From NCBI GenBank assembly GCA_026400555.1, contig JAPLOW010000141.1, positions 33,356 to 88,758 of the forward strand: DNA of 55,403 nt, read 5' to 3'. How positions within the stretch are numbered: position 1 is the stretch's first letter; every line of letters starts with the position of its first letter. Below the pieces are notes generated by a model that was not told the origin of the DNA, made no database searches, and saw only the letters and a list, made by a program, of their open reading frames with translations. This stretch comes from Hyphomicrobiales bacterium (lineage in GTDB: Bacteria; Pseudomonadota; Alphaproteobacteria; Rhizobiales; Beijerinckiaceae). This document shows positions 30,453 to 54,041 of this stretch, piece by piece. The position numbers were made by a program, and so were the translations under genes.

Positions 30453-32302
30453 GACGCTGCTCCTGACGACTGCGGTTCGGTCTGGCCGACTGCGGCGCGT
30501 GTCTCTTCGTTGAGCGCCGTGCCGGCCTTCTGCGGTTTGACCAGCGGTTCTGGCAGCAGGGTAATGCCAGTTCCGCGCAAAAGGTCCGTCCGCGCCAGAA
30601 TCCCGTCGGTGGCCTGCGCTTCGAGCCGCTGCAGATCGCGCTTGCGCACATCGGCGACGATGGTCGCGGCCTCATCGGGCGACAGGCCGAGCACCTCGAG
30701 CGTGATCCTCCCGAAATACAGCGCGCTTTCGAAGGTCTCGCGCACGAAGCGGTCGACGCCCACGCCCATCAACTCGATCGCGTGAACACGGTCGTAGGCG
30801 CGCACATGCACCCGCGCCTGCGGGAACTCCTGCTTGACGATCTCGGTGATGCGCTTGGCCGCCTGCCTATCATCGACGCAGACCGCAATCACCTTGGCCT
30901 TGCCGGCACCCGCAGCGCGCAGCACATCAAGCCGCGTGCCGTCGCCATAAAAGATCTTGAAGCCGAAGCGCGCCGCCGACTTGATGCGCTCGACCTCCTT
31001 GTCGATCACGGTCACATCGATCTTCTGCGTCAGCATGGTCTGGGTCACAACCTGTCCGAAGCGCCCGAAGCCGATGATCACAACCGAGCCGCCGGCGCCG
31101 TTGAAGTCTTCGTCCATCGTTTCCGCCGCGACCGGGTTCTTCGCCAGGTGAGCATCGATCATTTTGGCGATAATCGGTCCGATCAGCATGGTGATTGCAG
31201 CCAGCGCGGTGGCGATGGCGGCCTGCTCCTGTGTCAGCAACGACAGCGATCCGGCAAGCGGCAGCAGCACGAAGGCGAATTCGCCGGCCGGCGAAAGCAA
31301 CGCACCGGCGCGTATGGCTTCCGCAGTCGACGAGCAGGATGCCCTCAGGATGCCGGCGGCAACCGCGATCTTGAGCAGCACCAGCGCGGGCGCCGCCAGC
31401 GCCAGCAGCAGCCAGTTGTCCATCACCAGCCTGAGGTCGATCGACATGCCGACGGCCATGAAGAACAGCCCGAGCAGCACGCCGCGGAAGGGCTCGATGT
31501 CGGCTTCAAGCTCATGGCGGAAATTGGATTCAGCCAGCAGCACCCCGGCGAGGAAGGCACCCAGCGCCATCGACAGGCCGACATGCTCCATCAGCACGGC
31601 ACTGCCAAGCACGACCAGCAGGGCTGCAGCGGTCATCACCTCGCGCGCGCCCGATTTCGCCAGCAGGCGGAAGGCCGGGTTCAGCACGTATTTGCCGGCC
31701 ACCACGACCGCCGCGATGGCGGCGACCGCAAGCCCGACTCCAAGTGCGGCCTTTGTCAGGTCGCCACCGGCTCCGGTCGTCGCAGCCAGCGGCAGCAGCG
31801 CGAGGATCGGGGCAATCGCCATGTCCTGAAACAGCAGGATCGAAAAGGTCCGGCGGCCGTAATGTTCGTCCTGGTCGCCGCGCTCCTCGAGCAATTGCAG
31901 GGCGATGGCCGTGGCCGAAAGGCCCATGGCGATACCGACGGCGACGGCGCCCTGCCAGCTCAGCCCCATGGCGAGAGCGATGAGGCCAACCAGCAGCGCC
32001 GTCAGGCCCAACTGCGCCGAGCCTGCGCCGAAGATGTCCTTGCGCATGGCGATCAGCCGTGATGGCTGCAACTCAAGTCCAACGATGAACAGCAGCAGCA
32101 CCACCCCGATCTCGGCGATGCCGCGGATCGAATCGGCATCCGTGATCACCTTGAGCACGGATGGGCCGATCACCACGCCGGCCGCCAGATAGCCCAGCAC
32201 AGCCGACAGCCCGAACCGCCTGAACAGCGGCACGGCCACCACGGCGCCGGCGCAGAAGGTCAGAATCGGCGGCAGAAAACTGGCGTGGGAGGCGTCGGCC
32301 AT
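30449..32302 (-). CDS. monovalent cation:proton antiporter-2 (Kef-type) with RCK domain
   Basis: This 617-residue protein starts at ATG 32302. The N-terminal CPA2 membrane domain (about residues 1-380) has 'GLSAVLGYLAAGVVIGPSVLKVITDAD', 'GVVLLLFIVGLEL' and 'ALGAFLAGVLLAESNFRHELEADIEPFRG', as in KefB/KefC and YbaL. It is followed by a TrkA-N/RCK domain from about residue 400, with the Rossmann motif VVIIGFGRFGQ. Such proteins mediate K+ efflux or Na+/H+ exchange gated by nucleotide or glutathione adducts. No KefF/KefG-type ancillary flavoprotein is next to it; instead the MATE gene is coupled downstream. Confidence 0.9.
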   Translation of the reverse strand: MADASHASFLPPILTFCAGAVVAVPLFRRFGLSAVLGYLAAGVVIGPSVLKVITDADSIRGIAEIGVVLLLFIVGLELQPSRLIAMRKDIFGAGSAQLGLTALLVGLIALAMGLSWQGAVAVGIAMGLSATAIALQLLEERGDQDEHYGRRTFSILLFQDMAIAPILALLPLAATTGAGGDLTKAALGVGLAVAAIAAVVVAGKYVLNPAFRLLAKSGAREVMTAAALLVVLGSAVLMEHVGLSMALGAFLAGVLLAESNFRHELEADIEPFRGVLLGLFFMAVGMSIDLRLVMDNWLLLALAAPALVLLKIAVAAGILRASCSSTAEAIRAGALLSPAGEFAFVLLPLAGSLSLLTQEQAAIATALAAITMLIGPIIAKMIDAHLAKNPVAAETMDEDFNGAGGSVVIIGFGRFGQVVTQTMLTQKIDVTVIDKEVERIKSAARFGFKIFYGDGTRLDVLRAAGAGKAKVIAVCVDDRQAAKRITEIVKQEFPQARVHVRAYDRVHAIELMGVGVDRFVRETFESALYFGRITLEVLGLSPDEAATIVADVRKRDLQRLEAQATDGILARTDLLRGTGITLLPEPLVKPQKAGTALNEETRAAVGQTEPQSSGAAS

Positions 32303-35029: not shown

Positions 35030-35505
35030 CGGGCGCGAAGGTGGTGGTGTTCACGGACGGCGCCTGCTCGGGCAATCCCGGTCCGGGCGGCTGGGGCGCG
35101 ATCCTGACCTACAACGGCGTCCACAAGGAGCTTAAGGGCGGGGAGGCGATGACAACCAACAACCGTATGGAGCTGATGGCTGCCATCAGCGCGCTGGAAG
35201 CGATGAAGCGGCCTTGTGCGGTCGAACTGCACACCGACAGCCAATATGTGAAGCAGGGCATCACAAGCTGGATCCAGAACTGGAAGCGCAATGGCTGGCG
35301 CACGGCGGACAAGAAGCCGGTAAAGAACGAGGATCTCTGGCGCAGGCTCGAGGAGGCGCTGGCCCAGCACACGGTCGAGTGGCGCTGGGTCAAGGGCCAC
35401 GCCGGCCATGAGATGAACGAGCGTGCCGATCAGTTGGCCCGCGAGGGCCGCGACAGCCTAGTACTACAGTTGTGTTTACGTCAAAGTTCTGATTCCATGT
35501 TCTGA
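35026..35505 (+). CDS. rnhA: ribonuclease HI with an IS-derived 14-residue C-terminal tail
   Basis: This 159-residue RNase HI has all catalytic residues: Asp11 ([16 protein letters not shown]), Glu49 (NNRMELMA), Asp71 (HTDSQYV), Asp135 (NERADQLA) and the flexible-loop His (KGHAGHEMN). It cleaves RNA in RNA-DNA hybrids. Up to Leu145 the protein is native. The codon CTA of Leu145 is the start of the CTAG flanking an IS701-family element, and the last 14 residues plus stop are read from the IS end. Rejoining across the element gives a 148-residue protein ending DSLGGA. All conserved structure lies before the junction, so activity is probably kept. Confidence 0.93.
35458..35461. repeat. CTAG target-site duplication, left copy
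   Basis: CTAG at 35458-35461 matches CTAG at 36910-36913 on the far side of the element. The sequence fits the YTAR target preference known for the IS701 family. Because CTAG is palindromic it could formally be part of the inverted repeat. Keeping a single copy on excision restores proper stops for both flanking genes, while removing both copies does not, which supports a duplication. Confidence 0.8.
35462..35472 (+). repeat. left terminal inverted repeat of the IS701-family element
   Basis: TACTACAGTTG is the exact reverse complement of CAACTGTAGTA at 36899-36909. It also encodes part of the new tail of RNase HI. Confidence 0.88.
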
Positions 35506-35522
35506 TTGGCGGAGGATGGAGC

Positions 35523-36725
35523 ATGGGAATTGCGGACTGGGCGGGTACGTCGCTGGACTGGATGACGGCGCTTCAGGCGTTCAAGGCGGCGCTTGCGCCG
35601 GTCTTCGGGCGCGCCGAGACGCGGGGGTCTGCCGGCGCATTCATCGACGGGCTGTTGTCTGGCGTCGAGCGCAAGACGGGATGGATGCTTGCAGAGCAGG
35701 CAGGCCTCGCGCGTCCCTACCGGATCCAGTCTCTGCTCGGGCGCAGCGCTTGGGATGCCGATCGGCTTCGCGATCTGGTGCGCGATCGGACGATGGAAGC
35801 CATAGGCGATGCGGATGGCGTGCTCGTCGTCGACGAAACCGGCTTCCTCAAGAAGGGCGTTCATTCGGTCGGTGTCGCGCGCCAGTATTCCGGCACGGCG
35901 GGACGGATCGAGAACTGTCAGGTCGGCGTGTTCCTGGCCTTTGCGGGCCGCTACGGGCAAGCGCTGATCGATCGGCGCCTGTATTTGCCGAGGGTGTGGG
36001 CCGAGGATGCCGGCTGTCGTGAGCGCGCCGGCGTACCCGCGGACGTCGCCTTCGCAACAAAGCCGGTGATCGCCTGCGAGATGATCGCCTCGGCGCTGGA
36101 TGCCGGCGTGGCTTGCTCCTACGTTCTCGCGGATTCGGTCTACGGGTCGGACTGCAGACTGCGCCGAATGCTGGAGGAGCGCGGCCAACCTTATGTTCTG
36201 GCCGTACGTTCCAACCACCATCTGAGATTCCTGGAGGAAGACCGAACCCTCATCCAGACCGATCCCGCCACGATTGCGGATGATCTCGACGAGGCCGACT
36301 GGCGGGCGCTGAGCGCCGGCGAAGGCTCCAAGGGGCCGCGGCTCTACCACTGGGCGCGGGTCTCGCTGGGCTGGGCAAAGGACGAAAAGTTCGAGCGCTG
36401 GCTTCTGATCCGCCGCAGCCTCAGGAACCCTGACGAAATTGCGTATTACTTCGCCTTCGCTCGCGCGGGAACGGACCTGCCCGATCTCGCCGGCGCCGCC
36501 GGCCTGCGCTGGACCATCGAGGAGTGCTTCGTGCGGGCCAAGGATGATCTGGGGCTCGACCATTGCGAGGCACGATCCTGGAGCGCCTGGCACCGGCACA
36601 TGACGCTTGTCATGGCCGCAGCCGCGTTCCTCACCGGGATTGCCGCCGATCAGCGCAGGGCCGCATACACCAAGGCCGACGACGGCAAACGGGACAAAAC
36701 GAGTCCAAGCCGCGCCGCCGCCTGA
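35523..36725 (+). CDS. IS701-family transposase
   Basis: This 400-residue DDE transposase starts at ATG 35523 behind GGCGGAGGATGGAGC. Catalytic candidates are Asp104 (LVVDETGFLKKG), Asp204 (VLADSVYGSD) and Glu333/334 (RWTIEECF). The segment 'SVGVARQYSGTAGRIENCQVGVFL' is highly typical of IS701-family transposases. The frame is intact with no internal stop, and the length is normal for the family (about 400). It cuts and pastes the surrounding element. Confidence 0.93.
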   Translation: MGIADWAGTSLDWMTALQAFKAALAPVFGRAETRGSAGAFIDGLLSGVERKTGWMLAEQAGLARPYRIQSLLGRSAWDADRLRDLVRDRTMEAIGDADGVLVVDETGFLKKGVHSVGVARQYSGTAGRIENCQVGVFLAFAGRYGQALIDRRLYLPRVWAEDAGCRERAGVPADVAFATKPVIACEMIASALDAGVACSYVLADSVYGSDCRLRRMLEERGQPYVLAVRSNHHLRFLEEDRTLIQTDPATIADDLDEADWRALSAGEGSKGPRLYHWARVSLGWAKDEKFERWLLIRRSLRNPDEIAYYFAFARAGTDLPDLAGAAGLRWTIEECFVRAKDDLGLDHCEARSWSAWHRHMTLVMAAAAFLTGIAADQRRAAYTKADDGKRDKTSPSRAAA

Positions 36726-36898
36726 TCACCGCCCTCGCCGGACTGATGTCCACCTCGGAAATTCATCGCCTGATGGCGCGTCTCGTCATGACACCACCTC
36801 TCACCAACACAATGATATGGGCATGGTCCGTATGGCGACGGTATCACCAGCAGCAAGCGGCAAACTGTCATCGAAAACGGCGGTCAACTTTGCAGATG

Positions 36899-36909
36899 CA
36901 ACTGTAGTA
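36899..36909 (-). repeat. right terminal inverted repeat of the IS701-family element
   Basis: CAACTGTAGTA is a perfect match to the left end in inverted orientation. Confidence 0.88.
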
Positions 36910-36913
36910 CTAG
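36910..36913. repeat. CTAG target-site duplication, right copy
   Basis: CTAG repeats the left flank. Its first three bases (CTA) are, on the minus strand, the TAG stop codon of the GGDEF gene, so the duplication preserved that stop exactly. Confidence 0.8.
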
Positions 36914-48907: not shown

Positions 48908-49768
48908 TCAGTGCGCCCCGGCGTGTGCACCTGCACCCCATACATAGATCGCGGCGAACAGGAAAAGCCAGACCACATCGACGAAGTGCCAGTACCAGGC
49001 CGCAAATTCGAAGCCGAGATGCTGCTTCGGCGTGAAATGGTTGATGTAGGCGCGGTACAGGCAGACGGCGAGGAAGATCGTGCCGATCACGACATGGAAG
49101 CCGTGGAAGCCCGTGGCCATAAAGAAGGTCGAGCCATAGACATGACCCTTGAAGCTGAAGGCGGCGTGCGAATACTCGTAGACTTGGCAGATCGTGAACA
49201 GGACCCCGAGCGCGACGGTCAGCCACAGCGCCTGCTTGAGGCCCTTGCGGTCGTCATGCAACAGCGCATGGTGGGCCCAGGTCACGGTGGTTCCCGATGT
49301 CAGCAGGATCAGCGTGTTGAGCAGCGGCAGGTGCCACGGATCGAAGGTTTCGATGCCCTTCGGCGGCCAGAAGCCGCCCGTGAACTCGGCGCGGGCATAC
49401 TGCGCAGGCTCGGACGCAAACAGCGCGACGTCGAAGTAGGCCCAGAACCAGGCCACGAAGAACATCACCTCCGAGGCGATGAACATGATCATTCCATAGC
49501 GATGATGGATCTGGACCACACGGGTGTGATGACCCTCGTGGGTCGCCTCGCGCGTCACGTCCACCCACCAGGCGAACATGGTGTAGAGCACGCCAAGCAC
49601 GCCAGCCCCCAGAACCAGCGGGCCGATCTTCATCCCGGCGACCGGCAGGCCCTTCATCGTCAGCACCATGCCGCAAGCCATCACGAAAGCGCTCAGCGCC
49701 CCGATCAGCGGCCATGGGCTCGGATCGACGAGGTGGTAGTCGTGGTTCTTGGTCATCCCGCTGGCCAT
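48908..49768 (-). CDS. ctaE: cytochrome c oxidase subunit III
   Basis: This 286-residue seven-helix subunit III starts at ATG 49768 (the GTG-free alternative ATG 49756 gives MTKNHDYHLVDPSPWP). It has 'THEGHHTRVVQIHHRYGMIMFIASEVMFFVAWFWAYFDVALF', with the conserved Glu, 'WAHHALLHDDR', and the C-terminal 'GFHGFHVVIGTIFLAVCLYR' and 'FEFAAWYWHFVDVVWLFLFAAIYVWG'. It stabilises subunit I and its proton uptake in the inner membrane. It is the last gene of the aa3 operon before the terminator. Confidence 0.97.
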   Translation of the reverse strand: MASGMTKNHDYHLVDPSPWPLIGALSAFVMACGMVLTMKGLPVAGMKIGPLVLGAGVLGVLYTMFAWWVDVTREATHEGHHTRVVQIHHRYGMIMFIASEVMFFVAWFWAYFDVALFASEPAQYARAEFTGGFWPPKGIETFDPWHLPLLNTLILLTSGTTVTWAHHALLHDDRKGLKQALWLTVALGVLFTICQVYEYSHAAFSFKGHVYGSTFFMATGFHGFHVVIGTIFLAVCLYRAYINHFTPKQHLGFEFAAWYWHFVDVVWLFLFAAIYVWGAGAHAGAH

Positions 49769-49806
49769 GGTGCCCCCGTTCTGGTCTTGTCTGGTTGTCT
49801 ATAGCG

Positions 49807-50424
49807 TCAGAGCTTCGGCTTGTCCCCGCCCACTTTCGCATCAGCGACGGATCCGCCCGCAGGCTGTCCGTTCTTTGACGGGAAGTAGGTGTAGGACAAG
49901 GTCATCGCGCCGACTCCGCGCATGTCGCGGTTCTTCTCGATGTCCGGATCGATATAGAAGACGACTGGCGCCTCCATGCTCTCACCGGGCTTGAGTGTAT
50001 GCTCGGTGAAGCAGAAGCACTGCATCTTCACGAAATGTGCGCCCGCATGGGACGGTTGGACGTTGAAGGTCGCAATCCCGGTCGTCGCGGCGTCCGAGCG
50101 ATTCGTGATCCTGTAGAACACAGTCTTGGTCTCGCCGATGCGGGCGTTGATCACGTTCTCTTCCGCCTCAAAGCTCCAGCCGAGCCCCGGCGCGACATTG
50201 GCGTCAAAGCGGACCTGGATGACGCGGTCGGAGATCTGCGAGGCGTTCTGCGCGCGGACCATCGGCGTGCCGCCAAACCCGGTCATGCGGCAGAACAGGT
50301 CGTAAAGCGGCACCGAGGCGAAAGCGAGCGCCGTCATCGACACGACCACCGCCCCGCACCAGAGCGCGGTGCGTGTCGCCTTGAGGCGAGCAGTGTCCGA
50401 CTGGGTGCGTTCGGCAGCGTTCAT
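49807..50424 (-). CDS. ctaG: cytochrome c oxidase assembly protein CtaG (Cox11)
   Basis: This 205-residue copper chaperone delivers CuB to subunit I. It has one N-terminal TM ('TALWCGAVVVSMTALAFASVPLYDLFCRMTGFGG', including the conserved Cys after the TM) and a periplasmic immunoglobulin-like domain with the copper motif MQCFCFTEHTL and 'PVVFYIDPDI'. Its ATG overlaps the stop of the upstream 47-codon gene by 4 bp, and it lies 38 bp upstream of ctaE. Confidence 0.96.
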   Translation of the reverse strand: MNAAERTQSDTARLKATRTALWCGAVVVSMTALAFASVPLYDLFCRMTGFGGTPMVRAQNASQISDRVIQVRFDANVAPGLGWSFEAEENVINARIGETKTVFYRITNRSDAATTGIATFNVQPSHAGAHFVKMQCFCFTEHTLKPGESMEAPVVFYIDPDIEKNRDMRGVGAMTLSYTYFPSKNGQPAGGSVADAKVGGDKPKL

Positions 50425-50564
50425 CGGATCGTCTTCACCATCGAGACGGCATAGAAGATCACCACGAGCGCCCCGAGCGCGATCGCGATTGCCATCGAAC
50501 GGCGGCGGCGGACCCGCTCTTCCTCGGGCGACAGCTTTGGCGGAACCGGGAAATTATCCGTCAT
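50421..50564 (-). CDS. small single-TM protein of the cytochrome oxidase operon (CoxF-like)
   Basis: A 47-codon gene (ATG at 50564, stop TGA at 50421-50423) sits between ctaB and ctaG. The product is MTDNFPVPPKLSPEEERVRR, continuing with two more arginines, then one hydrophobic helix ('SMAIAIALGALVVIFYAVSMV') and KTIR. It overlaps ctaG as ATGA and lies 7 bp after the ctaB stop, so it is certainly translated if the operon is. A protein of this size and layout at this position is usual in alphaproteobacterial cta operons (CoxF), with a presumed but unproven role in oxidase assembly. Confidence 0.82.
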   Translation of the reverse strand: MTDNFPVPPKLSPEEERVRRRRSMAIAIALGALVVIFYAVSMVKTIR

Positions 50565-50571
50565 CCCAGCC

Positions 50572-51522
50572 TCACAGCAGCTTCGGCAGGGCCCACATCA
50601 GGCCAAGGCTGTGTTCGGCCAGCAAGGCCGAAAACGCGGCGAACAGGTAAAGGATCGAGAAGCCGAACATCTGCATGCCCGCCTTGTGGCTGGCCTCGGC
50701 GCTATCGGCCTTGAGGATGCGCCAGGCGATCCCAAGCATCCCCGCGCCGCCCAGAAGGACCGTCATCAGATAGGCCAGTCCGCCCATGCCCATCAGGTTC
50801 GGCACGAAGGCGAACAGGACCAGGGCCACGGTGTAGCCCATGATCTGCCGGCGGGTGGAGGCATCGCCGGCGACATTCGGCATCATCGGCACACCGGCAC
50901 GCTCATAGTCCTTGGCCTTGGCCATGGCGAGCGCCCAGAAGTGCGGCGGCGTCCAAAGGAAGATGATGGCGAACAGCACGAAACCGGCCCAGCCGATCTG
51001 GCCGGTCACGACAGCCTCGCCGATCATGGGCGGGAAGGCTCCCGCTGCGCCGCCGATCACGATGTTCTGCGCCGTCCAGCGTTTCAGCCACATCGAATAG
51101 ACGACGGCATAGAAGAAGATCGTGAAGGCCAGAAGCCCGGCCGCAACCCAGTTGGCCACGACGCCAAGCATCAGCACAGATCCGGCCGACAACGCCATGC
51201 CAAAGGCGAAGGCTTCCGATAGCGTGATCCGGCCTGCCGGGATGGGGCGTTTCGCAGTCCGCGACATCAGGGCGTCGATGTCGGCATCATACCACATGTT
51301 GAGCGCGCCTGATGCGCCGGCTCCGACCGCGATCGCCAGCAGCGAGGCGGCGGCGATCACCGGATGGATGGCGCCGGGCGCCACCACCATGCCGACGAGT
51401 GCGGTGAAGATCACCAGCGACATCACCCGGGGCTTGAGCAGCTGGAAATAGTCGCCGACATCCCCGCCGACGCGGTGCGCGGGCAGGGGCTGGTCAGCAA
51501 TCTTGTCGAACGCGGCGGACAT
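50572..51522 (-). CDS. ctaB: protoheme IX farnesyltransferase (heme O synthase)
   Basis: This 316-residue UbiA-family prenyltransferase has about nine TM segments. It has '[22 protein letters not shown]', the first Asp-rich prenyl-diphosphate/Mg motif '[23 protein letters not shown]', and a second region '[29 protein letters not shown]'. It makes heme O from protoheme for conversion to heme A; no ctaA is in the window. ATG 51522 is chosen because the upstream eight residues of the open frame lack homology. The spacer to ctaD (51523-51623) holds two hairpins. Confidence 0.95.
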
Positions 51523-51544
51523 GGCGGCGTGTGCCCTGGGTCGC

Positions 51545-51562
51545 AAGCGCCTTGAGGCGCTT
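51545..51562 (-). other. hairpin in the ctaD-ctaB spacer (smaller)
   Basis: AAGCGCC-TTGA-GGCGCTT is a perfect 7-bp stem with a 4-nt loop, 22 bp upstream of the ctaB start in transcription order. No T-run follows, so it is unlikely to be an efficient terminator. Confidence 0.6.
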
Positions 51563-51574
51563 TGGGTGAACTGA

Positions 51575-51604
51575 GCCGGCCGGATGACGGATCATCCGGC
51601 CGGC
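51575..51604 (-). other. strong hairpin in the ctaD-ctaB spacer
   Basis: GCCGGCCGGATGA at 51575-51587 pairs perfectly with TCATCCGGCCGGC at 51592-51604 (13-bp GC-rich stem, 4-nt loop). It begins 19 bp after the ctaD stop on the transcribed strand and is not followed by a T-run. This suits a 3'-end stabiliser or partial terminator that keeps ctaC-ctaD mRNA above the assembly-factor genes. Confidence 0.7.
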
Positions 51605-51623
51605 GTCAATCAGATAGCCAAAG

Positions 51624-53126
51624 TCAGTGATCCGTGCCGGTGATGCGCGGCAGGGTCTCGAACTGGTGGAAGGGCGGCGGCGAGGGCAGGGTCCACTCCA
51701 GGGTGGTCGCGCCTTCTCCCCACGGATTGTCGGCGGCCTGCTCCTTGCGGACGAAGGCGTAGATGACCGTGCCGAAGAACCAGAACAGGCTCGCGAGGAA
51801 GATGTACGAGCCCATCGACGACCACCAATGCCAGTAGGCGAAGGCATCCGGATAGTCGACATAGTGGCGCGGCATGCCGGCGAGGCCGAGGAAGTGCTGC
51901 GGGAAGAACAGGACGTTCGCGCCGACGAAGGCGACCCAGAAATGGACATGGCCCATCCAGTCCGGGATCACATAGCCGCTCATTTTCGGGAACCAGTAGT
52001 ACCAGGCCGCGAAGATTCCGAACACGGCGCCGAGTGACAGCACATAGTGGAAGTGCGCGACAACGTAATAGGTCGCGTGCAGTGAGCGGTCGACGCCGGC
52101 ATTGGCCAGCACGACGCCGGTGACGCCTCCGACGGTGAACAGGAAGATGAAGCCCACCGCCCAGACCATGGCTGCGGTGAAGCGGATCGAGCCGCCCCAC
52201 ATCGTCGCGATCCAGGAGAAAATCTTCACGCCCGTCGGGACGGCGATGACCATGGTCGCGAACACGAAATAGCGCTGTGTATTGAGCGACAGGCCGACCG
52301 TGTACATGTGGTGCGCCCAGACGATGAAGCCGACGACGCCGATCGCGACCATGGCGTAGGCCATGCCGAGATAGCCGAAAATCGGCTTCTTCGAGAAGGT
52401 CGAGATGATGTGGCTGACGATGCCGAAGGCTGGCAGGATCATGATGTAGACTTCTGGATGCCCGAAGAACCAGAACAGGTGTTGGTACAGGACGGGATCG
52501 CCGCCGCCGGCCGGATCGAAGAAGGTCGTGCCGAAATTGCGATCCGTCAGCAGCATGGTGATCGCGCCCGCCAGAACGGGCAGGGCGAGCAGCAGCAGGA
52601 AGGCGGTGATCAGCATCGACCAGGCGAACAACGGCATCTTGTGCAGGGTCATGCCCGGCGCGCGCATGTTCAGGATGGTGGTGATGAAGTTGATCGCGCC
52701 AAGGATCGATGCGGCGCCGGCCAGATGCAGCGCGAAGATGCCGAAGTCGACGGCCGGGCCCGGATGGCCGGTGGTCGACGAGAACGGCGGGTACACTGTC
52801 CAACCGGTCCCGGCACCGTTGGTGCCGGGCGCGCCCTCGACGAACATCGAGGTGACAAGCAGGCCGAAGGCGGCGACGGTCAGCCAGAACGAAATATTGT
52901 TCATGCGCGGAAAGGCCATGTCCGGCGCGCCGATCATCAGCGGCACGAACCAGTTGCCGAAGCCGCCGATCAGCGCCGGCATGACCATGAAAAAGATCAT
53001 GATCAGGCCATGGCCGGTGACGAACACATTGTAGGACTGCCCGGAGGCGAAATACTGCATGCCCGGCTCTTGCAGTTCGAGCCGCATGGCGATCGACAGG
53101 AAGGTAGCGGCTGAACCGTAGGCCAT
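51624..53126 (-). CDS. ctaD: cytochrome c oxidase subunit I (aa3), N-terminally truncated
   Basis: This 500-residue subunit I has the full catalytic core: heme a ligands His39 (TGHGLIMIF) and His360, heme a3 ligand His358 (VAHFHYVLS), CuB ligands His223, His272 and His273 with Tyr227 (FGHPEVY), D-channel Asp69 ([12 protein letters not shown]), Glu225 and K-channel Lys301. It begins [20 protein letters not shown], so the usual ~40 residues before this, including the STNHKDIG segment and most of TM helix I, are missing. The heme-a-formyl Arg of helix I's end remains (Arg15). AGGGGA precedes ATG 53126 with normal spacing, and the in-frame TAA of ctaC lies 24 nt upstream, so no longer start exists. 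Confidence 0.93.
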
Positions 53127-53150
53127 CGATATGGTCCCCTGTCTTGTCTG

Positions 53151-54041
53151 TTACTGGCCGACGACGGCGGCGACGCGCGTCGGCGCTCCGTCCGTGACAG
53201 CGAATTTCTTCTGCGATTCGGCGAGCCAGGCGGCGTAGCGCTCCTGGCTGACAACACGGATCGCGATCGGCATGTAGGAGTGGTTCTGGCCGCAGATAAA
53301 CGAGCATTGGCCGAAATAAAGCCCTTCCTTCTCCGCCTTGAACCAGGTCTCGTTGAGGCGCCCCGGAATGGCGTCGAGCTTCAGGCCGAAAGCAGGCATC
53401 GCAAACTTGTGGATCACGTCGGCCGCCGTCACCTGCAGGCGCACGATCTTGCCGACCGGCACGACGGCTTCGTTGTCGACGCCGAGCAGGCGCGGCACTT
53501 CTTCGGGCTTGGCCTTGCCGGTGTTCACCAACTCGAGGCGCTGCTTGTCGTCCAGCATCAGCGAGTCAAAGCCGAAGCCGCCGGCGTCCTTCGGATACTC
53601 CCAGGACCAGTACCACTGCTTCCCCGTAACCTTCAGGGTGATGTCGGAAGGAGGAATGACAAGCTGGTCGCGCAGGATGCGGAAGGACGGGATTGCCACC
53701 ACGACGAGGATCAGGACCGGGATGATCGTCCAGGCGACCTCAAGCCCGGCGTGATGGGTCAACTTCGACGGAACCGGGTTCTTCTTCTCGGCAAAGCGCC
53801 AGCAGGCATAGACCAGCAGCGCCAGCACGAACACCGAGATCAGCGTGATCAGGACCAGCAGCCAGTCATGAAACCAGACGATGTCGGCCATCTTCGGAGT
53901 GGCGGGGGCGGGCAGGTTCATCTGCCCGGGCTGGGGCTGTCCGTTCGGAGCGGCCAGCGCCAGGGCTGGCATGAACAGGGCCGAAGCGGCGCCACTCAGG
54001 GCGCTGGCCCGGCTCAAAACGCGGTTCATGGGTCCACGCAT
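53151..54041 (-). CDS. ctaC: cytochrome c oxidase subunit II
   Basis: This 296-residue subunit II starts at ATG 54041, after AAGGAG. It has a signal peptide (to about the ALALAAPN site near residue 30), two TM helices ('FHDWLLVLITLISVFVLALLVYACWRF' and 'GLEVAWTIIPVLILVVVAIPSF'), the aromatic electron-entry segment 'GKQWYWSWEYP', and the CuA site 'GQCSFICGQNHSYMPI' (Cys-x3-Cys-x3-His, Met) with the upstream His in 'VIHKFAMPAFG'. It accepts electrons from cytochrome c. It is the first gene of the operon; its TAA is 24 nt before the ctaD start and in the same frame. Confidence 0.97.
   Translation of the reverse strand: MRGPMNRVLSRASALSGAASALFMPALALAAPNGQPQPGQMNLPAPATPKMADIVWFHDWLLVLITLISVFVLALLVYACWRFAEKKNPVPSKLTHHAGLEVAWTIIPVLILVVVAIPSFRILRDQLVIPPSDITLKVTGKQWYWSWEYPKDAGGFGFDSLMLDDKQRLELVNTGKAKPEEVPRLLGVDNEAVVPVGKIVRLQVTAADVIHKFAMPAFGLKLDAIPGRLNETWFKAEKEGLYFGQCSFICGQNHSYMPIAIRVVSQERYAAWLAESQKKFAVTDGAPTRVAAVVGQ

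Follow-up and report, generated by a model that had tools for sequence, protein, structure and literature searches.

Analysis of the window (the whole stretch of 55,403 nucleotides studied here, from the draft Hyphomicrobiales genome G000) revealed that ctaD, which encodes subunit I of an aa3-type cytochrome c oxidase, lacks an internal, in-frame piece of 123 bp, or 41 codons (codons 8–48), that includes the STNHKDIG segment and most of transmembrane helix I. The gap is probably a local assembly error in a draft made from mixed DNA; the organism itself most likely has an intact ctaD, with the same ATG and a normal helix I. An assembly error is favored because a 119-bp match to the end of a contig from a related draft abuts the junction and continues into an intact helix I, because the same assembly has clean losses in a malic enzyme gene and in the gene for a ScfRs regulator, and because the remnants of ctaD, maeB, and ScfRs show dN/dS values of 0.01–0.04 against the relatives G080 and G081.

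The ctaD gene and the surrounding oxidase operon

The ctaC, ctaD, ctaB, ctaG, and ctaE genes are grouped on the minus strand at positions 48908–54041 of the window, with the following features:

48908..49768, minus strand: ctaE, subunit III
49807..50424, minus strand: ctaG/Cox11 assembly factor
50572..51546, minus strand: ctaB, heme O synthase of the UbiA family (assigned from family and context)
51624..53126, minus strand: ctaD, aa3-type cytochrome c oxidase subunit I, without codons 8–48 of the family form, 500 aa
52987..53105, no strand assigned: perfect match to the outermost 119 bp of contig C232 (G031), directly abutting the junction; putative assembly-graph fork
53105..53106, minus strand: deletion junction GCT/ACC, where G080, G081, and G034 have 123 bp more, G075 126, and G082 120
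53106..53126, minus strand: retained native start, MAYGSAA; 21 bases identical in G081
53127..53150, minus strand: ctaC–ctaD spacer with AGGGGA; one base different from G081
53151..54041, minus strand: ctaC, subunit II, with COX2 and COX2_TM, intact; the start is placed at the ATG before RGPMNRV

The ctaD frame is otherwise open, and its product matched the Pfam COX1 profile (PF00115) with 504.9 bits (cut-off, 34.8) over profile positions 14–436, whereas the match of the relative G034 begins at profile position 1. Across the retained part, the protein is 97% identical to that of G034, for which 7jro, 1m56, and 1ar1 are sequence relatives in the PDB. The initial annotation had reported that most of helix I is absent and that a TAA, the end of ctaC, lies in frame 24 nt upstream of the ctaD ATG; both observations were borne out, the TAA being located at 53151–53153. 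It had also listed the heme and CuB ligands, the Tyr-His pair, the channel residues, and the helix-I Arg as present, and this list held as well: in an alignment of 36 sequences, H39, H223, E225, Y227, H272, H273, T298, K301, H358, H360, D69, N58, N76, and R15 all fall in invariant columns and are all kept in the window ctaD. We take these residues to be the heme a, heme a3, and CuB ligands, the Tyr-His pair, D- and K-channel residues, and the helix-I Arg. A promoter and terminator scan of positions 51450–53250 found none. Relatives of the ctaD protein are also held by 909 plasmid records, which has no bearing on the deletion.

The operon had been described as the only oxidase operon. It is the only ctaD operon in the window, but the search for other terminal oxidases that the initial annotation proposed found cbb3-type genes on contig C201 of G000 (the end of ccoN, and FixO) and the cytochrome bd genes cydAB on contig C133, with an N gap inside cydA. 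The aa3 operon is therefore not the only oxidase of this genome.

Comparison of the ctaD start with related genomes

The ctaD of G034 has the same first seven codons (MAYGSAA), followed by 41 codons that contain the STNHKDIG segment and most of helix I, and then TFLSIAMR. The leader in G081 differs by a single base from that of the window ctaD, and its start and first seven codons, up to and including GCT, are the same. Because of this agreement, the T at the junction was taken as native and the breakpoint was placed at GCT/ACC; for the same reason, the start codon is native, and the missing piece is an internal one whose loss keeps the frame. This overturns the earlier proposal that a deletion had removed the start of ctaD and fused a new start codon in its place. 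The junction is clean and contains no Ns, and no repeats of at least 6 bp span the missing piece in the G034 sequence, so no de Bruijn shortcut is explained by one.

The STN(H/N)KDIG segment was present in 109 of the 109 relatives read, the window being the sole locus without it among 110 loci (L003–L112; these are best hits, not a random sample, and the own-genome matches L001 and L002 were left out). A script identified NHK in 95 of these relatives, while two with NNKDIG and 12 with another motif after helix I were read by eye. STNHKDIG was at least 90% conserved in the 36 sequences. Five further ctaD starts read beyond this set (G080, G081, G031, G082, and G075) all carry the piece, and the junction DNA was matched in 66 of 67 genomes of the genus. 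The nearest relatives found, G080 and G081, showed mostly 87–94% DNA identity per kb along contig C111. The initial annotation had expected about 120–140 extra bases encoding NHKDIG at the junction in the case of an assembly error; the comparison of the ctaC–ctaD junction that it suggested gave 120–126 bp in the relatives compared, that is, in relatives rather than in the genome's own reads.

A 49-residue query covering the missing helix-I piece gave no match elsewhere in G000 (a draft of 262 contigs, 85.33% complete), and helix I encoded at another place in the assembly was accordingly rejected as a candidate; this absence is weak evidence because the genome is only 85% complete. The same query matched strongly in G034, G031, and G011 and weakly in G026 (E 0.1, taken as spurious), where the ctaD contig ends within the gene. 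Partial or cut copies of ctaD occurred in the drafts G005, G026, G031, G032, G035, and G050 (best piece below 80% of the query; 6 of 59 matching genomes, ctaD being the only gene so counted), and a contig of G081 also ends within ctaD.

Contig-end overlap and assembly quality

Contig C232 of G031 starts with the 119 bases that lie directly after the deletion in the ctaD sense; an intact MAYGSAAHAHDDH...NHKDIG...LVG follows them on that contig. Among nine relative contigs or stretches compared, this was the only exact run of at least 60 bases at an end. In the rest of ctaD, G000 and G031 differ by 9.7% (104 differences over 1074 bp), and G034 differs from G000 at 7 positions in the same 119 bases, so about 7–12 differences between G000 and G031 would be expected in a stretch of this length. 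A length of 119 or 120 is a usual k-mer size. The identity suggests that G000 and G031 were assembled from shared or related data and that the junction is a fork in the assembly graph; the source of G000 is probably a metagenome. The fork alone does not tell whether the deleted or the intact path belongs to G000 itself. PMC7111523 ("Accurate and complete genomes from metagenomes") reports local assembly errors in metagenome-assembled genomes, as well as scaffold ends that overlap perfectly over about the largest k-mer size of the assembler.

In the mechanism that we propose, the assembler would meet a fork at the conserved 5' region of ctaD that is common to a related strain, and the ctaC side of G000 would then be joined straight to the sequence after the fork, with 123 bp dropped. 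The junction would in that case presumably not be supported by reads. Several observations run against an assembly error. The loss keeps the frame, as chance would allow in 1 of 3 cases, and has neither Ns nor repeats. K-mers across the junction may truly be in the reads, as the fork could indicate. The count of clean losses without ctaD is not clearly above that of control genome pairs, as set out below, and the small sizing error of the one measurable N gap and two stretches of G000 free of small clean losses, both also described below, point the same way.

In the 330 kb inspected, G000 contained N gaps of 1, 4, 19, 22, 83, and 105 bases; in addition, five short contigs read as Ns throughout. 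The sizes of these gaps are estimates: the 22 Ns inside cydA (L132, G000:C133, 4317–4338) stand where relatives have about 8 bp, a mis-sizing of about 14 bp. An error of this size in the one measurable gap is too small for mis-sized gaps alone to account for 123 bp. A query covering two other N gaps of C111 matched none of seven relatives (0/7).

The joining of two species in one scaffold was rejected, as G080 matches both sides of the junction, with 54 kb aligned at mostly 87–94% identity per kb. G000 was nearer to G034 or G031 than to G080 or G081 in 5 of 194 segments of 119 bp, four of the five lying within ctaD, which is conserved in all.

Clean losses elsewhere in the assembly

To the right of the window on the same contig, at G000:C111:97609 (L122, about 8851), 195 bp are missing, so that the malic enzyme gene maeB has lost its start codon and roughly 39 codons at its 5' end; the rest of the truncated gene is open and conserved, and the G081 form consists of malic and PTA_PTB domains. 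Between positions 1831 and 1832 of G000:C13 (L196), 77 bp are missing relative to both G081 and G075, which causes a frameshift in a ScfRs-type short-chain acyl-CoA regulator. A further loss of about 1259 bp relative to G080 and G081, at G000:C111:97915 (L122, about 9157), takes away almost the whole of a Tad-like gene that encodes a VWA domain. No small clean losses were found at match breaks in stretches of C8 (20 kb) and C3 (18.8 kb) of G000, where gaps within matches are invisible.

A control census of clean losses of 30–400 bp was carried out on C111 and the matching relative contigs. G000 lacked 123 bp relative to G080, G081, and G034 (126 relative to G075), 195 bp relative to G081, and 30 bp relative to G075, while G075 lacked 31 bp relative to G000 at another place. 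Five relative–relative pairs (170 kb aligned) gave two events, a 30-bp loss in G080 and a 353-bp loss in G034. As ctaD had prompted the search, it was left out of the count; the remaining G000 losses (195 and 30 bp on C111, 77 bp on C13) show no clear excess over the two control losses. What may distinguish the G000 losses from the two control losses is that they cut conserved genes. When ORFs of three reference contigs were screened (65, 46, and 50 ORFs; 6, 7, and 9 flagged, including many doubtful ORF calls), only ctaD came up in every one of the three sets; maeB escaped this census and was spotted by manual inspection. The clean junctions elsewhere and the contig-end overlap point to an assembly error, which the initial annotation had offered as one option, but they do not prove it.

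Larger presence–absence differences run both ways, and large losses alone are therefore not diagnostic: G080 is without 1735 bp that G000 has. This stretch of about 1735 bp (window positions 30498–32234) is largely matched in G034 and G011. Another, of 1449 bp at 35460–36910, is absent from G080 and had no listed match in the other relative contigs compared; within it, directly after an ORF that we take to be RNase H-like, lies a 400-aa ORF (35523–36725, plus strand) that by eye is presumably an IS701-type transposase. Positions 1 to about 22000 of the window showed almost no match to the compared contigs of eight relatives and may be an accessory region, although the G080 contig was covered only to base 80000 of 86705, which may account for the missing match.

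Selection on the retained sequences

The retained part of ctaD showed a dN/dS of 0.021 against G080 (8 replacement and 98 silent changes) and 0.011 against G081. The corresponding values for maeB were 0.043 and 0.011, and the two parts of the ScfRs gene gave 0.023 and 0.039 against G081 and 0.065 and 0.101 against G075. None of the three remnants showed decay or relaxed selection. In ctaD, G000 has one amino-acid change of its own, compared with 2 in G080, 4 in G034, 5 in G082, and 11 in G075, whereas neutral drift over the branch would give about 190 replacements (arithmetic from the dN/dS counts). A very recent ctaD pseudogene would give the same dN/dS picture; judged from these sequence counts, an inactive ctaD could be no older than roughly the last 2–5% of the branch to G080.

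These values bear on the alternative of a real and very recent 123-bp deletion, fixed or common in the population, that inactivated the aa3 oxidase and left respiration to the cbb3 and bd oxidases. Such an event is a serious alternative, though clearly the less probable one. The assembly contains the cbb3 (C201) and cydAB (C133) genes that it calls for, the junction is clean and without Ns, a real junction in the reads would give the same contig-end fork at this position, and clean losses of such size do occur between relatives, if seldom. However, the single own amino-acid change in the retained ctaD, set against 2 to 11 in four relatives, and its low dN/dS against G080 would confine the loss of function to that last small part of the branch, and maeB and ScfRs would need equally recent, independent lesions. 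A single error-prone assembly seems more likely than three independent lesions that are all so young.

It is very improbable that the contig is the consensus of a mixed population with both an intact and a deleted allele, of which the assembler gave the latter. The 119 bases that follow the junction are indeed also found on a second contig, where an intact piece precedes them, but the sequence upstream on C232 is of another lineage: the ctaC of G031 is 82.9% identical to that of G000 (17% different) and 95.1% identical to that of G034. C232 by itself consequently shows no intact G000 allele.

Could a subunit without most of helix I work?

At least as improbable is a real deletion after which the aa3 oxidase works although only 18 residues of helix I are left as a stump, to which an unrecognized small membrane protein might add the rest: the kept frame, the catalytic and channel residues, and the strong selection on the rest of ctaD agree with it, but STNHKDIG is highly conserved among the aligned sequences, the missing piece was not found in the (incomplete) assembly, and without helix I the other helices would be expected to have a disturbed topology. 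The best 19-residue mean hydropathy, over segments starting at residues 1–27, was 0.82, as against 2.34 for helix I of G034. AlphaFold2 drew residues 2–19 of the 500-residue form as a helix, in keeping with a stump; with a mean pLDDT of only 68.7 and a pTM of 0.76 for the whole model, this prediction of moderate confidence does not decide function. No subunit I without helix I was named in the open literature searched.

If the ctaD gap is an artefact, the locus illustrates how conserved genes in a gapped draft can lose short, exact pieces with no Ns left in their place, and it is a warning against inferring gene loss from one such genome. If the deletion is real, it would represent a very recent loss of the main oxidase. 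If it is real and the enzyme works, which is far less likely, helix I and STNHKDIG would be dispensable for a heme-copper oxidase, and the idea of their indispensability would be challenged.

Comparison with known systems

The G000 junction resembles the local errors of metagenome-assembled genomes described in PMC7111523 in that a gene is broken in a gapped draft with other clean junctions and in that the junction perfectly overlaps another contig end near a plausible k-mer length. It differs from them in that the overlapping contig belongs to another genome, not to the same bin; read support would be the defining test for such errors. Subunit IIa of B-type oxidases, which according to PMC3128077 supplies the first helix of subunit II as a separate small protein, is a precedent for a first transmembrane helix on a protein of its own; it concerns subunit II, however, and a separate helix-I protein was not found in the incomplete G000 assembly. 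Compared with A-type aa3 subunit I (CtaD/Cox1), the window ctaD lacks the STNHKDIG segment and most of helix I, but it is alike in the catalytic and channel residues checked, all of which are present, and in having ctaC, ctaB, ctaG, and ctaE around it.
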